Of a stretch of 64,000 bases of DNA, positions 10,811 through 39,102 are shown piece after piece (within the stretch, counting starts at the first letter, position 1; every line of letters starts with the position of its first letter). The notes beneath the pieces were generated by a model that was given only the letters and a program-made list of their open reading frames with translations, made no database searches and was not told the DNA's origin. The stretch is from positions 930,001 to 994,000 of the forward strand of contig NZ_CP048788.1 of assembly GCF_012932215.1 (NCBI RefSeq), in the 5' to 3' direction. A program made the position numbers and the translations under genes. Source of the DNA: Roseobacter ponti (lineage in GTDB: Bacteria > Pseudomonadota > Alphaproteobacteria > Rhodobacterales > Rhodobacteraceae).

Positions 10811-11308
10811 ATGATCCTTCGCGCAGTGACGCTGTCCCTGGGGCTCGCCGGTGCTTTTGGCGCCGCGCAGTTTCCCGCTTATTCTCAGCAGTATCTGCAA
10901 CGCCTCGGCGGCGCCGTGGATGCGCTAGGCGAAGTGGTGCGCGATTTTGACACCTCTGCCGCAACGCTGGGACTGAGCCGTGCTGACGCACTTGCCGGGA
11001 TGACCGGGTCCGCCTTTGTCACCAGCCGCAGGGCCGATATGGAGCGGACCTTTGCCCGCCACGCGTCTCTTTCGGCTGACCTTGCCGTGCTCGAAGACCT
11101 CGGCCCCTTCATGCGGGCCTGGAATGCACCCCGGATGACCGACCCGCAGATTGCCTCCGGCGCCTTGCAGGCCTTTCGCCCCGCGCTCCCGCTGGAGCTT
11201 GCCACGCTGATCTTTGCCGGCGCAGGTTTTGTCGCCACATGGCTGGCGCTCCGGGTCTGCCGGATGCTGATTGTGCCGTCACGCCGCCGCAGGCCGATGA
11301 CCGCTTGA
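10811..11308 (+). CDS. DUF2937-type membrane protein
   Basis: 165 residues from ATG 10811, preceded by GGAGCAGGAT. The N-terminus has one hydrophobic segment (LSLGLAGAFGAAQFPAYSQQYLQRL) and the C-terminus another (LATLIFAGAGFVATWLAL), the layout of DUF2937 proteins: two membrane spans with a helical loop outside, followed by a basic cytoplasmic tail ending SRRRRPMTA. The motif QFPAYSQQYLQRLGGAVDAL is typical of this family, which has no assigned function. It lies between proS and lolC/E on the same strand, with gaps of 67 and 54 bases, so shared transcription is plausible. Confidence 0.75.
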   Translation: MILRAVTLSLGLAGAFGAAQFPAYSQQYLQRLGGAVDALGEVVRDFDTSAATLGLSRADALAGMTGSAFVTSRRADMERTFARHASLSADLAVLEDLGPFMRAWNAPRMTDPQIASGALQAFRPALPLELATLIFAGAGFVATWLALRVCRMLIVPSRRRRPMTA

Positions 11309-11362
11309 CCCGCCAGTGCCAAAGCATCAGGTTGCGCGCAACCTTGCAGACCGGGAACTGAC

Positions 11363-12649
11363 ATGGCCGGAAAAACCGCCCCCTTTGCCGCATTTGAGTG
11401 GATGATCGCCTGGCGCTATCTGCGCGCCCGCCGGGCCGAGGGGGGTGTCAGCACGATGACCTGGATCAGCCTCATTGGTATCACGCTGGCGGTCTTTGCA
11501 CTGATTGCGACGCTGGCTGTGCGGTCGGGCTTCCGGGCCGAGTTTGTGGGAACGATCCTCGGCGCTAATGCGCATGTGACGGTTTATTCCTTTGGAGAAG
11601 TGGATGCGTCGGGCCGGGTGGACCGCAGCATGACGGAATTCGATGACATGGCTGCGCGTCTTGCCGAAGTGCCCGGTGTAACCCGGGCCGCACCGCTGAT
11701 CCGGGCGCAGGTGATGGGCGCAGGGCAGGGGCGCAACTCTGGTATTGATCTCTACGGTATCGCCGCAGCGGACTTTGAGAGCCTTCCGGGCATTGCCGGT
11801 TCTGACGCCGCACTGGGCGATATCAGTGCCTTCGGAGAGGGGATTGCACTGGGATCCGGGCTTGCCCGCGAGCTTGGGGTGGGCATCGGTGACAAAATCC
11901 GGCTCATCTCGCCTGACGGGGTGAAAACCGCTTTTGGTACATCGCCCCGCATCAATGCCTATGACGTGGTCTTTATTTTCTCCGCCGGGCGCTATGACAT
12001 CGACCGCACGCGCGCCTATCTGCCGTTCGACGAGGCCCAGGTGTTTTTCAACAAAGAAAATACCGCAGACGAGATCGAAGTGATGATCGAAGAGCCCGAA
12101 GCCGTCGACCGCATTACCCCTGTACTTTTGCAGGCGGCGGGTCCGGGCAGCCAGGTCTGGACATGGCGCGATGCCTCAGGCGGGTTCCTGCGCGCGCTTG
12201 AGGTTGAGGACAACGTCATGTTCATCATCCTGTCGATCCTTGTGCTGATCGCGGCGATGAACATCGTCTCCGGGCTGATTATGCTGGTCAAAAACAAGGG
12301 GCGCGACATCGGTATTCTGCGTACCATGGGGCTGAGCGAGGGCTCGGTGCTGCGGGTATTTTTCATCTGTGGTGCGTCAACGGGCATTGCGGGAACGCTG
12401 ATGGGGGTGATCCTGGGGTCGATCTTTGCGCTCTATATCGATCCGATTTTCTCCTTTGTGAACATGATGATGGGCGGCGGTGTCTGGGATCCGGCGATCC
12501 GGGGCATCTATGCGCTGCCGGCGGAACTGCATCTTGATGATGTGCTCTCGGCCACGGCGCTGTCGCTGGGGCTGTCCTTTGTGGTCACGATCTTTCCGGC
12601 CCGCAAAGCGGCGCGGATGAACCCCGTCGAGGCGCTGCGCTATGAGTGA
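11363..12649 (+). CDS. Lipoprotein-releasing ABC transporter permease (LolC/LolE family)
   Basis: 428 residues. There is one N-terminal membrane span near residues 36-57 ([22 protein letters not shown]), a large periplasmic domain, and three C-terminal spans, the architecture of LolC/LolE. The segment [28 protein letters not shown] is the coupling-helix region of FtsX-type permeases. In E. coli LolC and LolE form a heterodimer with LolD; only one permease gene is present here, directly overlapping lolD by eight bases, so it probably homodimerises (LolF-like). The complex extracts mature lipoproteins from the inner membrane for transfer to LolA. The two lipoproteins at 14.9-16.0 kb would be potential clients. 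Confidence 0.92.
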
Positions 12650-13331: not shown

Positions 13332-13385
13332 AGAACTTGACCTTGCGGATGCCTTGCGCACAACTGTGCGAAAGAGGTGACCGCT

Positions 13386-14381
13386 ATGCCAGTTCTTTCC
13401 GTGGAAGAAATCGAAACAACAACTGCAACCGCGCTGCGTGCGCACGGTGCATCTCCCTTTGCTGCTGCCGAAGTGGCGCGTGCTGTGGCCGCAGCAGAAA
13501 GCCACGGTAACCGGATCTGCGGGCTTTATTATGTGGAAAGCTATTGTCATCAGCTGCAGAGCGGCAGGGTGACCGGCGATGCCGATCCCGTGGTCAGCAA
13601 ACCAGGACCGGGAGCTGTGCATGTTGACGCAGGGTTCGGGTTTGCGCAGCCGGCGTTTGCCCATGGCCTTGTACCGGCCCTCGATGCTGCGCGCGAAAAC
13701 GGGGTGGCAACACTGGCCGTCGCCCATGCGCATACCTGCACGTCGCTGGGGTATTTCACAGAACAGATCGCGCGTGCCGGGCTGATCGGCCTGGGGTTTA
13801 CCAATGCCTCGCCGATCGTCGCACCACCCGGCGGACAAACGCGCGTCATCGGCACCAACCCGATCGCCTTCTCCGTGCCTGACGGCGCGGGTGGTATCGC
13901 AATGCAGTTCGATCAGTCGACGACGACAGTTGCACTCGGCAAGATCACCATGGCCAAAGCCACCGGAAAATCCATCCCCGAGGGCTGGGCGCTCGACGCC
14001 TCGGGTGCCCCGACAACCGATCCGGACGCGGCTCTGAAGGGCTCGCTGGTTTCTGTGGGTGGATACAAGGGCTGGGGGCTCGGGCTGATGGCGGAACTGC
14101 TGGCCGCCGGGATGACAGGCTCCGCCCTGTCGCGCGATGTCAAACCGCTCAAAGCCAGAAGCGGGCCGCCGCACGATCTGGGACAGTTTTATATTCTGAT
14201 GGACCCCGGCGTATCGTCCGGCTTTGCCGACCGGCTCCGGGCACTGGAGGATATCGTGGCGCTTGATGAAGGCACGCGTATGCCGGGGCAGCACCGGACG
14301 GCAGCAGAAAAGGTCGATGTGCTTGACGCTGTCTGGGCGCAGATCACAGAACTGGCGGAGGGGCCTGCACCTTCTGCGTGA
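13386..14381 (+). CDS. Ldh-family (malate/L-lactate-type) dehydrogenase
   Basis: 331 residues from ATG 13386, with AAGAGGTGA five bases before it; the GTG at 13377 is part of that site. The sequence follows the non-classical malate/lactate dehydrogenase family (Ldh_2): ESHGNRICGLYYV near the N-terminus contains the catalytic-type His, then GFGFAQPAF, the THTSLGY-like HTCTSLGYFTEQIA, and TNASPIVAPPGG...GTNPIAFSVP. Such enzymes reduce or oxidise 2-oxo/2-hydroxy acids, delta1-piperideine-2-carboxylate or ureidoglycolate with NAD(P)H in the cytoplasm; the substrate cannot be chosen from sequence. The 3' 38 bases overlap the convergent YdcZ-type gene. Confidence 0.88.
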   Translation: MPVLSVEEIETTTATALRAHGASPFAAAEVARAVAAAESHGNRICGLYYVESYCHQLQSGRVTGDADPVVSKPGPGAVHVDAGFGFAQPAFAHGLVPALDAARENGVATLAVAHAHTCTSLGYFTEQIARAGLIGLGFTNASPIVAPPGGQTRVIGTNPIAFSVPDGAGGIAMQFDQSTTTVALGKITMAKATGKSIPEGWALDASGAPTTDPDAALKGSLVSVGGYKGWGLGLMAELLAAGMTGSALSRDVKPLKARSGPPHDLGQFYILMDPGVSSGFADRLRALEDIVALDEGTRMPGQHRTAAEKVDVLDAVWAQITELAEGPAPSA

Positions 14382-33527: not shown

Positions 33528-33560
33528 GCAGGCGCTGAGGGTTTGGGAAGAGGTACACGG

Positions 33561-34115
33561 GTGTTCGGAGCGAAAGACCGCAAAAAGGTCGAAAAGCTGA
33601 TCGGTAAGGTTGCTTTGCGGGATCGCGCGGCCTTTGACGGGCTCTACGAGGCCACTTCGGCGAAACTATTCGGCGTCTGCCTGCGTGTGTTGAATGACAA
33701 AGCCGCCGCGGAAGATGCCATGCAGGACACCTATGTTAAAATCTGGAACAACGCGGACCGCTACCAGGCGAACGGTCTGAGCCCGATGACATGGCTGATT
33801 ACAATTGCGCGCAACACGTCGATTGACCGGCTGCGTGCAAAGAAAAGCGGCAGTACCGATTTCGAGAGTGTGGAAAGCACGCTGGTGGCACCCGGGCTGA
33901 CGCCCGAGCAATCCGCTGTGGCGTCGTCTGAGGCACGCAAACTGCAGAAATGCCTCGACGGTCTGGAGAAAGACCGCGCAGCGGCGGTGCGCGGCGCGTA
34001 TCTGGATGGCAAAAGTTATGCTGAGCTTGCCAGCCGCTTTGACGTGCCCCTGAACACCATGCGCACCTGGCTGCGCCGTGGACTGATGTCGCTGAGGGAG
34101 TGTATGTCGTCATGA
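33561..34115 (+). CDS. ECF-type RNA polymerase sigma factor
   Basis: 184 residues from GTG 33561, with AAGAGG seven bases upstream; the open frame begins at TTG 33543. Region 2 is RDRAAFDGLYEATSAKLFGV through DAMQDTYVKIW and WLITIARNTSIDRLRA; region 4 is the C-terminal helix-turn-helix GAYLDGKSYAELASRFDVPL ... WLRRGLMSLRECM. The missing regions 1 and 3 mark it as ECF. It directs core RNA polymerase to stress promoters and is coupled by ATGA overlap to a membrane anti-sigma factor. The signal and targets are unknown; no ECF-type consensus was identified in the window. Confidence 0.9.
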   Translation: MFGAKDRKKVEKLIGKVALRDRAAFDGLYEATSAKLFGVCLRVLNDKAAAEDAMQDTYVKIWNNADRYQANGLSPMTWLITIARNTSIDRLRAKKSGSTDFESVESTLVAPGLTPEQSAVASSEARKLQKCLDGLEKDRAAAVRGAYLDGKSYAELASRFDVPLNTMRTWLRRGLMSLRECMSS

Positions 34116-34813
34116 CCGATGATGTGCTTGTCCTGGGCGATGGCGAAGGCCCTGATGATGACAGCCTGGCGGCGGAGTTCGCCCTCGGGCTGACACCGGC
34201 AGATGAGCTGGGCCCGCTGCGCGAGCGGCTCAGGACGGATGCGAAATTTGCCGCAGCTGTGGCCGCGTGGCAGCAACGGCTTGCGTCACTTGCCGACGAT
34301 ATCAAACCGGTAAAGCCGCCGCGCCGCGCGCGGAACCGGCTGCACCGCAGGCTTTTCGGCGCCGAACGCCGGCCGTTGCTGCAAAAACTCTGGGTCTGGC
34401 AGGGCATCAGCTTTCTAGCGCTTGGTCTGGCGGCCTGGATCAGCTTCAGCGATCTTACGCCTGATCAGGTCCCGACCGCTCCTGTCTATGCGACGCAGAT
34501 TTCCAATGCAGATGAGGGCCTGACGGTGCTTGCGGTTTATGACCCGTCGCGTCAGGCGCTTGTCCTTAACCGGACCGAGGGCAGTGCGCGCGCCGGTCGG
34601 GTGCTGGAGCTCTGGGCGATTGCACCGGATGCGGCCCCTGTTTCTCTGGGCGTACTGCCCGATGCGCCGAACGCACGGGTGATCCTGCCGGAAGATCTGG
34701 CAGAGATTGCAGGCGCGCTGACCCTCGCGATTTCAGATGAACCCGAGGGTGGCTCGACGACAGGTGCGCCGACCGGTGATGTGCTCGGCGCAGGCGCTGT
34801 CTCCGAGCTCTAA
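34112..34813 (+). CDS. Membrane anti-sigma factor (RskA-like)
   Basis: 233 residues from ATG 34112, overlapping the sigma-gene stop. The N-terminal cytoplasmic part (~1-95) includes a helical sigma-binding segment AAEFALGLTPADELGPLRER typical of anti-sigma factors. A single membrane helix follows near 95-115 (LWVWQGISFLALGLAAWISF). The periplasmic C-terminal domain carries the RskA/anti-sigma-K pattern: GLTVLAVYDPSRQALVLN, ELWAIAPDAAPVSLGVLPD and the DEPEGGSTTGAPTGDVL finish. No zinc-binding HxxxCxxC motif is present, so it is not of the ChrR/RsrA redox type; control by a periplasmic signal and proteolysis is more likely. Confidence 0.87.
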   Translation: MTDDVLVLGDGEGPDDDSLAAEFALGLTPADELGPLRERLRTDAKFAAAVAAWQQRLASLADDIKPVKPPRRARNRLHRRLFGAERRPLLQKLWVWQGISFLALGLAAWISFSDLTPDQVPTAPVYATQISNADEGLTVLAVYDPSRQALVLNRTEGSARAGRVLELWAIAPDAAPVSLGVLPDAPNARVILPEDLAEIAGALTLAISDEPEGGSTTGAPTGDVLGAGAVSEL

Positions 34814-35207: not shown

Positions 35208-36188
35208 ATGCGAGCGCCTTTGATCGATAATCTGCAGTATGCTGACTTCTCTCCGGAAATCTTTGCGCAGATGCGCGAGGGCGGTGTGGATGCAGTCCAT
35301 GTGACCATTGCCTATCACGAGAGCTTTCGCGAGATGGTCCTGAACCTCGAGAAATGGAACCGCTGGTTTGAGGCCCATCCCGACCTGATATTCAGGGGTA
35401 CGCATGCCGGCTGCGTCACGCGGGCACAGGAGACCGGGCGGACTGCGATTTTCTTCGGGTTTCAGAATCCGTCGCCCATCGGCGATGACATCGGTCTGGT
35501 AGAGATCTGCCACCAGCTCGGCATCCGGTTTATGCAGCTGACTTATAACAATCAGTCGCTGCTGGCCACGGGCTGCTATGAAGATGAGGACACCGGGCTG
35601 ACGCGCATGGGCCGACAGGTGGTGCGCGAAATGAACCGCGTTGGCATGGTGGTGGATATGTCGCATTCCGCTGAGCGCTCGACGCTGGAAGCGATTGAAC
35701 ATTCGACGCGCCCCGTTGCGATCACCCATGCGAACCCGCACGCCTGGCATGCCGCTCTGCGCAACAAATCAGACAGGGTGCTGCGGGCGCTGACAGAGGC
35801 GGGCGGGATGCTGGGGTTTTCGGTCTATCCGCATCACCTCGCGGGCGGGACAGACTGCACGCTTGAGAGCTTTTGCGGGATGATCGCGGATACTGCCGGA
35901 CGCTATGGTTCAGAGTATCTCGGCATCGGGACCGATCTGTGCCAGAACCAGCCGGACAGTGTCGTGGAGTGGATGCGGGTCGGACGCTGGTCCAAAGTGA
36001 TTGATTACGGCGAGGGCACAGCGGCAAATGCGGGCTTTCCGCCAATGCCGCACTGGTTCCGCGACAACCGTGATTTCGGCAACATCCGTGCGGGGCTTCT
36101 TGCCGCCGGCCTGTCGGAGACCGACACGGACGGGATCATGGGCGGCAACTGGCACCGCTTTTATGACGCGGGCTTCGGGCCGGCATGA
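35208..36188 (+). CDS. M19 membrane-dipeptidase-fold protein with altered metal site
   Basis: 326 residues from ATG 35208; GTG 35148 is the alternative. The chain follows the M19 dipeptidase (renal dipeptidase) fold: late histidines in VVDMSHSAERS and ITHANP, and LGIGTDL near the end with the substrate-side Asp. However, the N-terminal I-D-G-H-x-D of the family is I-D-N-L-Q-Y, and the bridging Glu position (I-E-G-G) reads F-Q-N. This is like the PA5396-type dipeptidase homologue that lies in the dgc (dimethylglycine) region of Pseudomonas. A classical binuclear zinc centre is therefore unlikely; activity may differ from peptide hydrolysis. Coupled by ATGA overlap to the next gene. Confidence 0.75.
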   Translation: MRAPLIDNLQYADFSPEIFAQMREGGVDAVHVTIAYHESFREMVLNLEKWNRWFEAHPDLIFRGTHAGCVTRAQETGRTAIFFGFQNPSPIGDDIGLVEICHQLGIRFMQLTYNNQSLLATGCYEDEDTGLTRMGRQVVREMNRVGMVVDMSHSAERSTLEAIEHSTRPVAITHANPHAWHAALRNKSDRVLRALTEAGGMLGFSVYPHHLAGGTDCTLESFCGMIADTAGRYGSEYLGIGTDLCQNQPDSVVEWMRVGRWSKVIDYGEGTAANAGFPPMPHWFRDNRDFGNIRAGLLAAGLSETDTDGIMGGNWHRFYDAGFGPA

Positions 36189-37837
36189 AGGATTTCCCGG
36201 ATATCCCGCAGGCGCCGCTGCGCCCGCCCGCGGAGGTGATGCGGCTGAAGCGCATGGGCGCGATGTTCCCCACGCGGCTGTCTTTTCTGCGCACGCTGAT
36301 GCGCCGGCTGGCGGCAGAACAGGTGCAGGTGCGCCGCCCGGTCTGGGAGATCGGCGATGCCGGGTTCGGTCACGCGGTCTATTCCCTGGAGCTTGGCGGA
36401 TATGCGTATTCGCTTGTTGCGGTCGCCACCGATCTGCCCCCCGGTCAGCGCACCGACCGGGTGATCGCTACTGCCTGGGACACGGCCTATGTCCTTTATG
36501 ACGGTGTGCCGGATGCAGATGAGATCGCGCGGATCTGTGCTGCCGCGCCCCGGCAGGAGGCCGCCCGGTTCACGGAACGGGACCTTGTGCTCAGCCGCGC
36601 CAACAAGTCGTTCCGTCTGTTTTCGCATGTGGTGGAACGCCTGCGGGCAGGCCGTCAGCCTGATGAAGCGCTGGTGCGCGCCACGGGCTACCTGATGCGG
36701 ACCACTGCCGTCTACGGTAACGGAAAGTTCGGGATCGCCGACCGCGCCGTTTATGACGACCGGCCGGGGCTCGAAGGGCCGTTCATGGCCGAGATGCTGA
36801 CCGTCTGGCTGATCCGTCTGTTTACCCATGATCTGGCCGAGCATCTGGGCGGTGGAGCGCTCGACCGCAGGCTGAAAAGGCATCTGGGCATCGGGAATTC
36901 CACCGGCCTGGGCATGGCGCCGTTTCTGGTGAACCATCCTGTGCTGCTGAACAACTGGATGATGGTGCGTGAAACGGCACTGGCCCGTGTCAGGGCTGTT
37001 ACGTCGCTTGATGCGGAACAGATTGCCTGTGTGCAAGCGCTTTATAAGCGCGTGGCGCGGCACCTCGCGGAATGGGATGTGCCTGACCCGGCGTATCAGG
37101 CGCGGATCGCGGTTCTGCGACAGGACTGGCGGCGGCTGGCACCCTGTTTTGCGACCGCCGCCCTTGCCGGAGAGATGCCGGTTGCGCGGCTTCTGGCGCA
37201 TACCCGCCAGAGCAGCGTTGATCTGCAGGAACTGATGGCGGCTCTGGTGATGGAGCCCTTTGGCGGGCTGGTGGACGGTCTCGCCGACTGCATGAGTGAT
37301 CCTTTTGGCGCGCAGGTTGTCCCCTTTGCTGGCACCGCTGATCTTGCAGCGGCTGTTGACGCGGGGTTCGCCTGGGCGCTGGCGCCCGATTACGGGGCAC
37401 CTGACCAGTGCCGCCAGTTCTGGTACGTCAGTGCGGCCAAACAGGAACCCCGGCTGGGTCTGCGGTTCGACGAGCCGGGTGAAGAGCTTGAAAGCCCGCT
37501 GGATATTGCCAGAAGTATCAAGGCACTGCGGCGCGATCTTAATCAGAAAGATGAGCCTCTTTCCGCCTTTCTGGCACGCTTTCCCGAGCATGCGCTTGCG
37601 GCGTCGCGGGTGGCTCTCGGGGAGCGCTATCCCTATGCTGAGATCCGCGACAACCTGATCGCCGATACCTGCCTGCCGATTGATATGCTGCGCTGCAAGC
37701 TTGCGTTCTTCGGTGCCTCGCGGTTTGACCCGCGATCGGACCGCTGGACACGGATCACGCTTTGTCAGGGCGCGCCGCTGGCGGATGAACTGGACACGCG
37801 CGCGGATGACTGGTGGTTGCCGGTTTTCGGCGGATGA
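36185..37837 (+). CDS. 550-residue protein of unknown function, coupled to the M19-fold gene
   Basis: 550 residues, start ATG 36185 inside the M19 stop. No known domain was recognised. The sequence is soluble and largely helical with several clear blocks: a start MKDFPDIPQAPLRPPAEVMRLKR..., LTVWLIRLFTHDLAEHLGGG, LGMAPFLVNHPVLLNNWMMVRETALARVRAV, and a C-terminal CRQFWYVSAAKQEPRLGLR ... ADDWWLPVFGG. The LGMAPFLVNHP block contains a His and conserved-looking hydrophobics that could be an active site, but this is speculation. It is embedded by four-base overlaps on both sides, so the three proteins are probably made in matched amounts and may form a complex. Confidence 0.7.
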   Translation: MKDFPDIPQAPLRPPAEVMRLKRMGAMFPTRLSFLRTLMRRLAAEQVQVRRPVWEIGDAGFGHAVYSLELGGYAYSLVAVATDLPPGQRTDRVIATAWDTAYVLYDGVPDADEIARICAAAPRQEAARFTERDLVLSRANKSFRLFSHVVERLRAGRQPDEALVRATGYLMRTTAVYGNGKFGIADRAVYDDRPGLEGPFMAEMLTVWLIRLFTHDLAEHLGGGALDRRLKRHLGIGNSTGLGMAPFLVNHPVLLNNWMMVRETALARVRAVTSLDAEQIACVQALYKRVARHLAEWDVPDPAYQARIAVLRQDWRRLAPCFATAALAGEMPVARLLAHTRQSSVDLQELMAALVMEPFGGLVDGLADCMSDPFGAQVVPFAGTADLAAAVDAGFAWALAPDYGAPDQCRQFWYVSAAKQEPRLGLRFDEPGEELESPLDIARSIKALRRDLNQKDEPLSAFLARFPEHALAASRVALGERYPYAEIRDNLIADTCLPIDMLRCKLAFFGASRFDPRSDRWTRITLCQGAPLADELDTRADDWWLPVFGG

Positions 37838-38328
37838 CCTGGTCGGTTGCGGAAATCACAGCACTCGCATCAAAGGCCGCGCGCGGGGCCGGAGCGCCTG
37901 CGTGGCAGGCGGCGCGTTTCGGACAGGCAGCGGCGCTTCATCTTAGATACGGGCGTCCGGCGACTGAGCTTGATGCGGCGCTGTCAGAGCTTCCGGGCGG
38001 GCCGGCCATGGATCTGCCACTTGCGCTGGATGCCGCACTGGCAGCAGCGGCGCCCGAGGCAGTGGTGATGTCGGATGCACCGCCCGGTTTGCTGCAGAGC
38101 TATGTCGACGCGCTGCCCTGCCGTGCGACCGCGACGGCAGGTGAGGCCGGCGTCTGGCAGCTGAGAACCGAGCCCGGGACACCCCGGGAAAGGCCGGTAC
38201 CCGGTCGCATATCCTGCGCGGATGCGCTGATCGCGCAAATGACTGCGCTTGCGGAGAAAACCTATGTGCCTGAAACGGATGCCTCGCGTGCCGCGGGTGC
38301 CGGTGCCGGGCTGACCGACAACGACTGA
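37834..38328 (+). CDS. DUF3726-like protein, third gene of the M19-fold operon
   Basis: 164 residues from ATG 37834, overlapping the previous stop by ATGA. The N-terminus WSVAEITALASKAARGAGAPAWQAARFGQAAALHLRYGRP resembles the short helical DUF3726 family, whose function is not established. The remainder is Ala-rich with no motif or membrane span, and the C-terminal tail is disordered. Its strict coupling to the two upstream genes suggests an accessory subunit. Assignment to DUF3726 is from memory of the motif 'EIxALAxKAARGAG' and should be verified. Confidence 0.6.
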   Translation: MTWSVAEITALASKAARGAGAPAWQAARFGQAAALHLRYGRPATELDAALSELPGGPAMDLPLALDAALAAAAPEAVVMSDAPPGLLQSYVDALPCRATATAGEAGVWQLRTEPGTPRERPVPGRISCADALIAQMTALAEKTYVPETDASRAAGAGAGLTDND

Positions 38329-38334
38329 CGGGTG

Positions 38335-39102
38335 TCAGGCGAAAGGGTTCTCGTCATAGGCCACATGGCGCAGATAGAGCCCCTGCGGCGGACAGACCGG
38401 ACCACAGGCCGCGCGATCACGTGCTGCGAGTGCGGCTGCCATATCGTCCGGCGTCCATGAGCCGGTGCCGACCCGTTCCAGACTGCCCACAAAGCTGCGC
38501 ACCTGATTGTGCAGAAAAGACCGTGCGCGCACGTCAAAGTGCACTTCCGTGCCGTAGTCTGTCTGGTGCGCGGTCACATCCAGACGGTCGAGCGTTTTGA
38601 CCGGGCTGTCGGCCTGGCAGATCGTCGACCGGAAAGTGGTAAAATCATGCCTGCCGGTCAGGTGGTCCGCGGCCTCCTGCATTGCCGCGACATCGAGCTG
38701 CTGGCGGACCTGCCAGACGAGCCCTTCAAGATGGGTGGCGGGCGCACGACGGCTCAGGATGCGGAAGAAATACTGCCGCTCAAGTGCGGAGAAACGCGCG
38801 TGCCAGTCCTCCGCCACCCGGGCGCAGGCGACGATCGCCACTGGCGCGGGTTTCAGGTGATAGTTCACCGCCTCAGACAACCGGAAAGGTTCCCAGTCCC
38901 GCGCCATGTCGCAATGGGCCACCTGACCCAGAGCATGCACACCGGCGTCGGTGCGCCCGGCGGCTGCGATGCTGTGATCGCCTGGTTCGATACGCGACAG
39001 GGCGGCCTCGATCGCCCCCTGAACGGTGGTCTGTTCTTTCTGGCGCTGCCAGCCGGCAAAAGGCGCGCCGTGGTATTCAATTTTCAGGGCATAGCGGGGC
39101 AT
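38335..39102 (-). CDS. truA: tRNA pseudouridine(38-40) synthase
   Basis: 255 residues. Family landmarks: [18 protein letters not shown] at the start, the catalytic Asp52 in [29 protein letters not shown] and the RNA-binding [18 protein letters not shown]. The enzyme converts uridines 38-40 of the anticodon stem of several tRNAs to pseudouridine. It converges on the M19-fold operon with six bases between stops. Confidence 0.95.

Follow-up and report, generated by a model that had tools for sequence, protein, structure and literature searches.

Catabolism of homarine (N-methylpicolinate) has reportedly been assigned by Ferrer-Gonzalez et al. to an operon, homABCDER, which is said to occur in Rhodobacterales, SAR11, and SAR116 and to yield N-methylglutamate. 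Two enzyme families are relevant to the genes described below. M19 dipeptidases bind zinc through five ligands, namely an HxD motif near the N-terminus, a bridging Glu, and two His residues, and Ldh_2 dehydrogenases carry a conserved catalytic His. Homarine itself is a plankton metabolite that is taken up quickly by R. pomeroyi (PMC12817926, in excerpt). The participation of Mgd in its catabolism is reported, with reference to Ferrer-Gonzalez et al. (2026, Nat Microbiol 11:1531-1546, doi 10.1038/s41564-026-02313-7), in an excerpt of PMC13390433.

The locus analyzed here lies in Roseobacter ponti, within a stretch of 64,000 nucleotides that we refer to as the window. The genes of interest in the window are the following.

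33543..34115, + strand: ECF sigma gene, upstream neighbor of the trio
34100..34813, + strand: anti-sigma gene, upstream neighbor of the trio
35208..36188, + strand: M19-fold protein gene (326 aa; ATG start; Pfam M19, E 1e-69)
36185..37837, + strand: gene for a 550-aa protein of an unnamed family
37834..38328, + strand: DUF3726-type protein gene (164 aa; assigned from alignments and the model of a homologue from locus L098)
38335..39102, - strand: truA, downstream neighbor and marker of the relocated type
13377..14381, + strand: Ldh_2 protein gene, nearest relative delta1-piperideine-2-carboxylate reductase

The initial annotation described the three central genes as coupled by ATGA overlaps and isolated between an ECF sigma module and truA. 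Both overlaps are present in the ORF list (36185-36188 between the M19 and 550-aa genes, 37834-37837 between the 550-aa and DUF3726-type genes), and the ORF positions confirm the isolation. The M19 frame has an alternative opening at GTG 35148. Taken alone, ATGA overlaps are an ordinary feature of bacterial operons. No paper describing these genes was found in the open-licence literature searched.

Conservation of the trio was followed through the 550-aa gene, which occurs in 25 of 59 relatives searched and in 39 of 289 drawn genomes of the class, and whose family is present in all 19 genomes of the genus. Relatives of the protein lie on at least 582 genome stretches, from which the best 80, a set that favors close relatives, were taken as database loci and their neighbors counted by tblastn. 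A DUF3726-type gene directly follows the 550-aa gene in 77 of these best 80 loci, and in the remaining three the contig breaks off no more than 270 bases past the 550-aa gene. Seventy-five of the same 80 hold at least 1 kb of upstream sequence, and 53 of them have an M19 gene within 4 kb upstream (48 within 200 bp, five more at up to 4 kb), with none in the other 22. The genomes of 19 M19-less loci were searched, and every one encodes a close M19 protein elsewhere (68-75% identical). Of the 34 genomes lacking the 550-aa gene, 24 served as a control, and one of these has an M19 at E <1e-100, versus six of six genomes that carry the gene; the exception, G020, has its close M19 gene beside a LysR gene. 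The arrangement extends to four actinobacterial MAG loci (L093, L096, L098, and L099), in which M19 is present in all four and DUF3726 in three, the fourth contig ending. The three genes are therefore conserved together, and this neighborhood supports the proposal, read earlier from strict coupling, that they form a functional unit.

In other genomes the trio is part of a longer operon, which at its fullest reads LysR-ALDH-M19-550-DUF3726-Ldh and is accompanied by betaine-type transporters. This order is found on annotated plasmids of Aminobacter and Pararhizobium, and all six genes are present at plasmid loci L031, L032, L033 (two fused), and L125 as well as at L095 and L100-L103. Variations on the theme include a BCCT transporter inserted into the six-gene order of Ruegeria TM1040, fusion of the 550-aa and DUF3726 proteins into a single protein in one Mesorhizobium plasmid operon, a reversed Ldh in Shinella, and a Phaeobacter operon without Ldh. 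OpuA-type transporter genes follow the operon in several plasmids. The rhizobial plasmid loci also lie among other betaine genes. Compact versions occur in AT-rich genomes of 1.2-1.6 Mb; in L158 and L159, OpuA genes, ALDH, M19, 550, and DUF3726 follow one another and Ldh is divergent, and L160 has M19-550-DUF3726 with a Mgd/Sox-like gene ∼5 kb off. The nearest solved structure to the operon Ldh is DpkA (1wtj; E 5e-53 versus 2e-38 for the next). A distant operon of the S. meliloti pSymB type (L126) reads IclR - 550-like - 242 aa - M19 - ABC transporter - aminotransferase - SSADH; the S. meliloti row sits on a very long branch of the tree and its placement is unsure. The window locus holds three of the six operon genes, with LysR, ALDH, and Ldh missing. 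The fuller operon comprises five enzymes and one regulator, as homABCDER reportedly does, and from this outline we infer that the two are the same.

A connection to N-methylglutamate comes from the neighbors of the fuller operon. In Ruegeria TM1040, a sarcosine-oxidase-like tetramer and a helix-turn-helix regulator precede the operon. The alpha subunit of this tetramer has copies in three genus genomes that share 71-73% identity with it, and the beta subunit is 78-80% identical to the two compared. In those three genomes (ORFs of all three, Pfam run on one), the tetramer adjoins dmm-type genes and an AraC-type regulator in the order dmm - AraC - tetramer. Because these alike copies stand in the gene order given for R. 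pomeroyi DSS-3, dmmDABC - tmaR - mgdABCD (PMC13390433, in excerpt), the TM1040-type tetramer is probably mgdABCD, N-methylglutamate dehydrogenase, with paralogue labels drawn from homology and gene order. A related tetramer lies beside Ldh, M19, 550, and DUF3726 in SAR116 (L109 and L110). Its beta subunit in L110 is 57-59% identical to the Mgd type versus 47% to the other paralogue, and the SAR116 alpha subunit, at 40-41% versus 37-38%, is hardly decisive. A tetramer near the SAR116 type is also found at L161, where no Ldh match was obtained. Mgd-type genes are not beside the window trio, and a Mgd-like set is located elsewhere in the window genome.

The 550-aa protein, the largest of the three, had been said to contain no recognizable domain, and a profile search had been proposed. 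The description holds: Pfam, NCBIfam, and PDB sequences give nothing credible, and the libraries searched contain no known family to which the protein could be assigned. Its structure model is confident (pLDDT 91.3, pTM 0.92) and has zero Foldseek matches in the PDB at E ≤0.001 and no VIA match at Z ≥5. The best Foldseek match, MutS, was rejected as a relative (E 0.13, TM 0.09), as was the top VIA row, phage Mu Mom, with a Z of only 4.8 and other weak rows below it. Matches to the GNAT/malonyl-CoA decarboxylase fold, at VIA Z 4.8 and lower, are in the range of chance. The absence of a PDB match to a predicted model does not prove a new fold. A 1304-aa open frame at L013 was rejected as a fusion, its upstream part resembling GC-rich off-frame translation, and the 550-aa part alone was taken from it.

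The third protein of the window scores below the cut-off for Pfam DUF3726 (PF12525; E 0.13, 12.6 bits, cut-off 22.1). In its alignment, 14 of 15 members, the window protein included, match DUF3726 at E ≤1 (best 1.1e-26), and by these profile matches it is a divergent DUF3726 relative. The full-length DUF3726 homologue of L098 (206 aa) was modeled with a pLDDT of 89.6. All 17 Foldseek matches of this model with E ≤0.001 belong to the Ldh_2 family, and so do the top 15 VIA rows (Z 9.3-11.5; next row 5.8). When the DUF3726 and operon Ldh profiles were compared, 46 columns at the N-terminus agreed (E 4e-5, probability 70). Judged from the L098 model, DUF3726 proteins are shrunken Ldh_2 folds, of which the window protein, linked by its alignments, would be a short version. 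They are ∼100-170 residues shorter than Ldh_2 proteins, and no invariant His is present in the DUF3726 alignments A2 (15 rows) and A6 (32 rows); on both grounds, they are probably not dehydrogenases themselves.

For the M19 protein, the Pfam M19 match starts at profile position 28, and the nearest PDB entry is 2i5g, an "amidohydrolase" (E 7e-54), which we take to be PA5396; the connection to PA5396 made in the initial annotation is thereby upheld. In all 13 rows of alignment A4 and two further rows, HxD is absent and Gln replaces the bridging Glu, while the two His and the Asp are retained. In the alignment of those two further rows, a canonical M19 of G007 has DGHND and the Glu, the N-termini not being aligned residue by residue. 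The Gln substitution is common to the subfamily and 2i5g. With ligand roles as generally understood for M19, three of the five canonical zinc ligands are missing, and because there is neither an HxD pair nor a bridging Glu, we do not regard these proteins as canonical two-zinc dipeptidases.

The window copy belongs to a clade whose members are often neighbors of truA. A quick tree built from 112 sequences places every one of the 44 truA-linked rows in a single clade of 62 rows (SH-aLRT 100); its members L035 and L036, the same sequences as G018 and G017, are labeled uncultured Roseobacter. LysR and the operon-type ALDH are mostly missing from this clade (L058 has both), several Litoreibacter loci have a different ALDH (∼35% identical), and no Ldh was found beside loci of the clade. 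In 14 genomes of M19-less loci, the detached M19 forms an ALDH-M19 unit in six, belongs to a second complete copy in two, and has no recognized ALDH in six. The core can thus persist, as in the truA-linked clade, when the remaining operon genes are gone. Among the 19 genomes of the genus, 15 carry the truA type (assigned from observed linkage in 13 and from identity in two) and five the operon type, with one having both and none neither. That the two types are almost mutually exclusive (Fisher p 0.0013, not corrected for relatedness) suggests that they do the same job. A close copy of the operon ALDH is absent from the window genome; seven of the 15 truA-type genus genomes have an ALDH that matches it at 50-54% only, in three cases with an in-frame stop. 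The Ldh_2 protein encoded at 13377-14381 is nearest to 1wtj in the PDB (E 2.8e-46, next 4.1e-39), has a 40-44% match in 19 of 19 genus genomes, and could be a candidate partner of the trio acting from a distance.

Our current hypothesis, which we consider somewhat more probable than its negation, takes the trio for the core of an operon that degrades an N-methylated, 2-carboxylated six-membered N-heterocycle, with homarine as the most likely substrate, and the arrangement beside truA for a stripped-down form of it; both the substrate and the steps are putative. The DpkA-like Ldh and the Mgd-type genes fit a ring of this kind that ends in N-methylglutamate. Homarine would be imported by a betaine-type transporter, and the Ldh may act as a reductase at, or close to, the carboxylate-bearing N=C2 end of the ring. 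A 550/DUF3726 complex and the M19 protein would then hydrate and open the ring and release one carbon, ALDH would oxidize the semialdehyde to N-methylglutamate, from which Mgd would generate glutamate plus a C1 unit. For the window organism, the gene at 13377-14381 may supply the Ldh activity, and some other ALDH could carry out the aldehyde step. If the homarine reading holds, ring-breaking would be performed by a family without a Pfam entry or recognized fold, aided by a pseudo-dehydrogenase and a pseudo-dipeptidase, and encoded on at least 582 genome stretches. A more specific and tentative proposal, possible rather than likely, is that the 550-aa and DUF3726 proteins are the two subunits of an enzyme belonging to a new class, which, with the zinc-poor M19 protein, carries out O2-free hydration and opening of the N-methylpyridinium-carboxylate ring. 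If ring C6 leaves as formaldehyde, the conversion of homarine and 3 H2O to N-methylglutamate and formaldehyde is redox-neutral and would be balanced by one reductase (Ldh) and one ALDH, as a matter of arithmetic rather than data.

The initial annotation had suggested degradation of modified amino acids or betaines. The general link stands; the partner genes would favor an N-methylated six-membered ring (homarine) over the glycine betaine, carnitine, and D-amino compounds that it named as test conditions. Within the broader class, another N-methylated cyclic or betaine-type compound (proline or pipecolate betaine, trigonelline, or similar) could be the substrate, with the truA-type trio having its own substrate in this range. 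Loci of Mesorhizobium and Shinella lie beside a trimethylamine-methyltransferase-family gene, FAD oxidoreductases, a DgcA-like oxidoreductase, and OpuA genes, and the distant S. meliloti version, in pairing the core with an aminotransferase, succinate-semialdehyde dehydrogenase, and a polyamine-type transporter, indicates that the core is not specific to a single substrate. However, across the loci read, neither an oxygenase nor a methyltransferase recurs as a constant partner, and the DpkA-like Ldh and Mgd-type genes fit the 2-carboxylated six-ring. We consider a different substrate rather unlikely. It is very unlikely that the trio plays an accessory part in the degradation of glycine betaine, dimethylglycine, or sarcosine, in which M19 and its partners would handle a demethylation by-product. 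This idea draws on 2i5g as the nearest solved M19 and on the predicted dipeptidase gene located ahead of dgcAB in Vibrio natriegens and P. aeruginosa (PMC12093977, in excerpt), but the dgcAB gene set, as the excerpt describes it, has a hypothetical protein and a dipeptidase, with no mention there of a DpkA-like Ldh.

Control of the trio by the nearby ECF sigma factor had also been put forward; in an extended version of this reading, the truA-type trio would be regulated by, and serve, the ECF module in a stress response rather than catabolism. The module adjoins the trio in the window, in its nearest relative (G001), and in four loci, all Sulfitobacter, and a loose pair search of two upstream regions found three 6+4-base pairs in common versus 0.34 expected under simple, not dinucleotide, shuffling. 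The same regions share one 5+5-base pair (0.33 expected) and no 6+5-base pair (0.075 expected, both by simple shuffling). The four Sulfitobacter loci are, however, the only ones among the best 80 of at least 582 (68 of these 80 have 3.5 kb or more of upstream sequence), the gap between the anti-sigma and M19 genes is nearly 400 bp, and the fuller operons have their own LysR gene. Regulation by the ECF factor is thus not borne out, the ECF/anti-sigma pair is probably not part of the unit, and a stress-response role is the least probable of these readings, a very remote one.

Several components of the proposed homarine pathway have a described counterpart from which they depart. The trio M19 shares its fold with the membrane dipeptidases and 2i5g, and the Gln with the latter, but lacks HxD and the bridging Glu. 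The predicted fold of the DUF3726 proteins is that of the Ldh_2 family and DpkA (1wtj), from which they differ in length and in the missing invariant His. The S. meliloti operon keeps a distant core trio in one operon (550-aa proteins ∼30% identical), whereas order, partners, and regulator differ. The fuller operon resembles homABCDER, as reportedly described, in five enzymes and a regulator, in occurrence in Rhodobacterales and SAR116, and in the link to Mgd; the window copy differs in having three of the six genes and in lying beside truA. The trio is probably a reduced arrangement of this published system.

The 550-residue protein and the DUF3726 protein are encoded as a single fused protein on a Mesorhizobium plasmid (L033, 11974-14418), which suggests that the two belong to one complex. 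Genome G020 is an exception to the co-occurrence of the close M19 gene with the 550-residue gene, as it carries, at L175 7404-9342, a LysR gene and a close M19 gene without a 550-residue gene.

Several other genes adjoin the operon or the trio. Genes for a three-subunit molybdenum hydroxylase, of the xanthine-dehydrogenase type by Pfam (on L110), lie downstream of the DUF3726 gene on the strand opposite to the operon in L105 and in the SAR116 loci L109 and L110. A DMSP-demethylase family gene adjoins the operon in the AT-rich genomes (L158, L159, and L160) and in Phaeobacter, and the genes of this family beside the operon match the Phaeobacter copy at 31-51%:

L030, 14864-15970, DMSP-demethylase family gene, Phaeobacter

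In Litoreibacter roseus (L072), the trio is followed by a histidinol-dehydrogenase-family gene (11285-12592) whose cluster has four members. Directly 5' of many 550-residue genes that lack a nearby M19 gene are two large genes (∼600 and 1420 residues), which, by sight of their sequences, look like a putative TamA/TamB pair:

L042, L044, L046, L050, and others, minus strand, large gene pair

Distant versions of the 550-residue protein, ∼28-30% identical to the window protein, occur in three rhizobial loci:

L126, 7223-17656, S. meliloti
L123, 9198-17640, Neorhizobium
L124, 8134-15747, Mesorhizobium ciceri

Each is accompanied by a partner protein of 240-255 residues, and each locus has ABC transporters of its own. 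The S. meliloti and Neorhizobium loci also contain M19, the former with additional aminotransferase and succinate-semialdehyde dehydrogenase genes.
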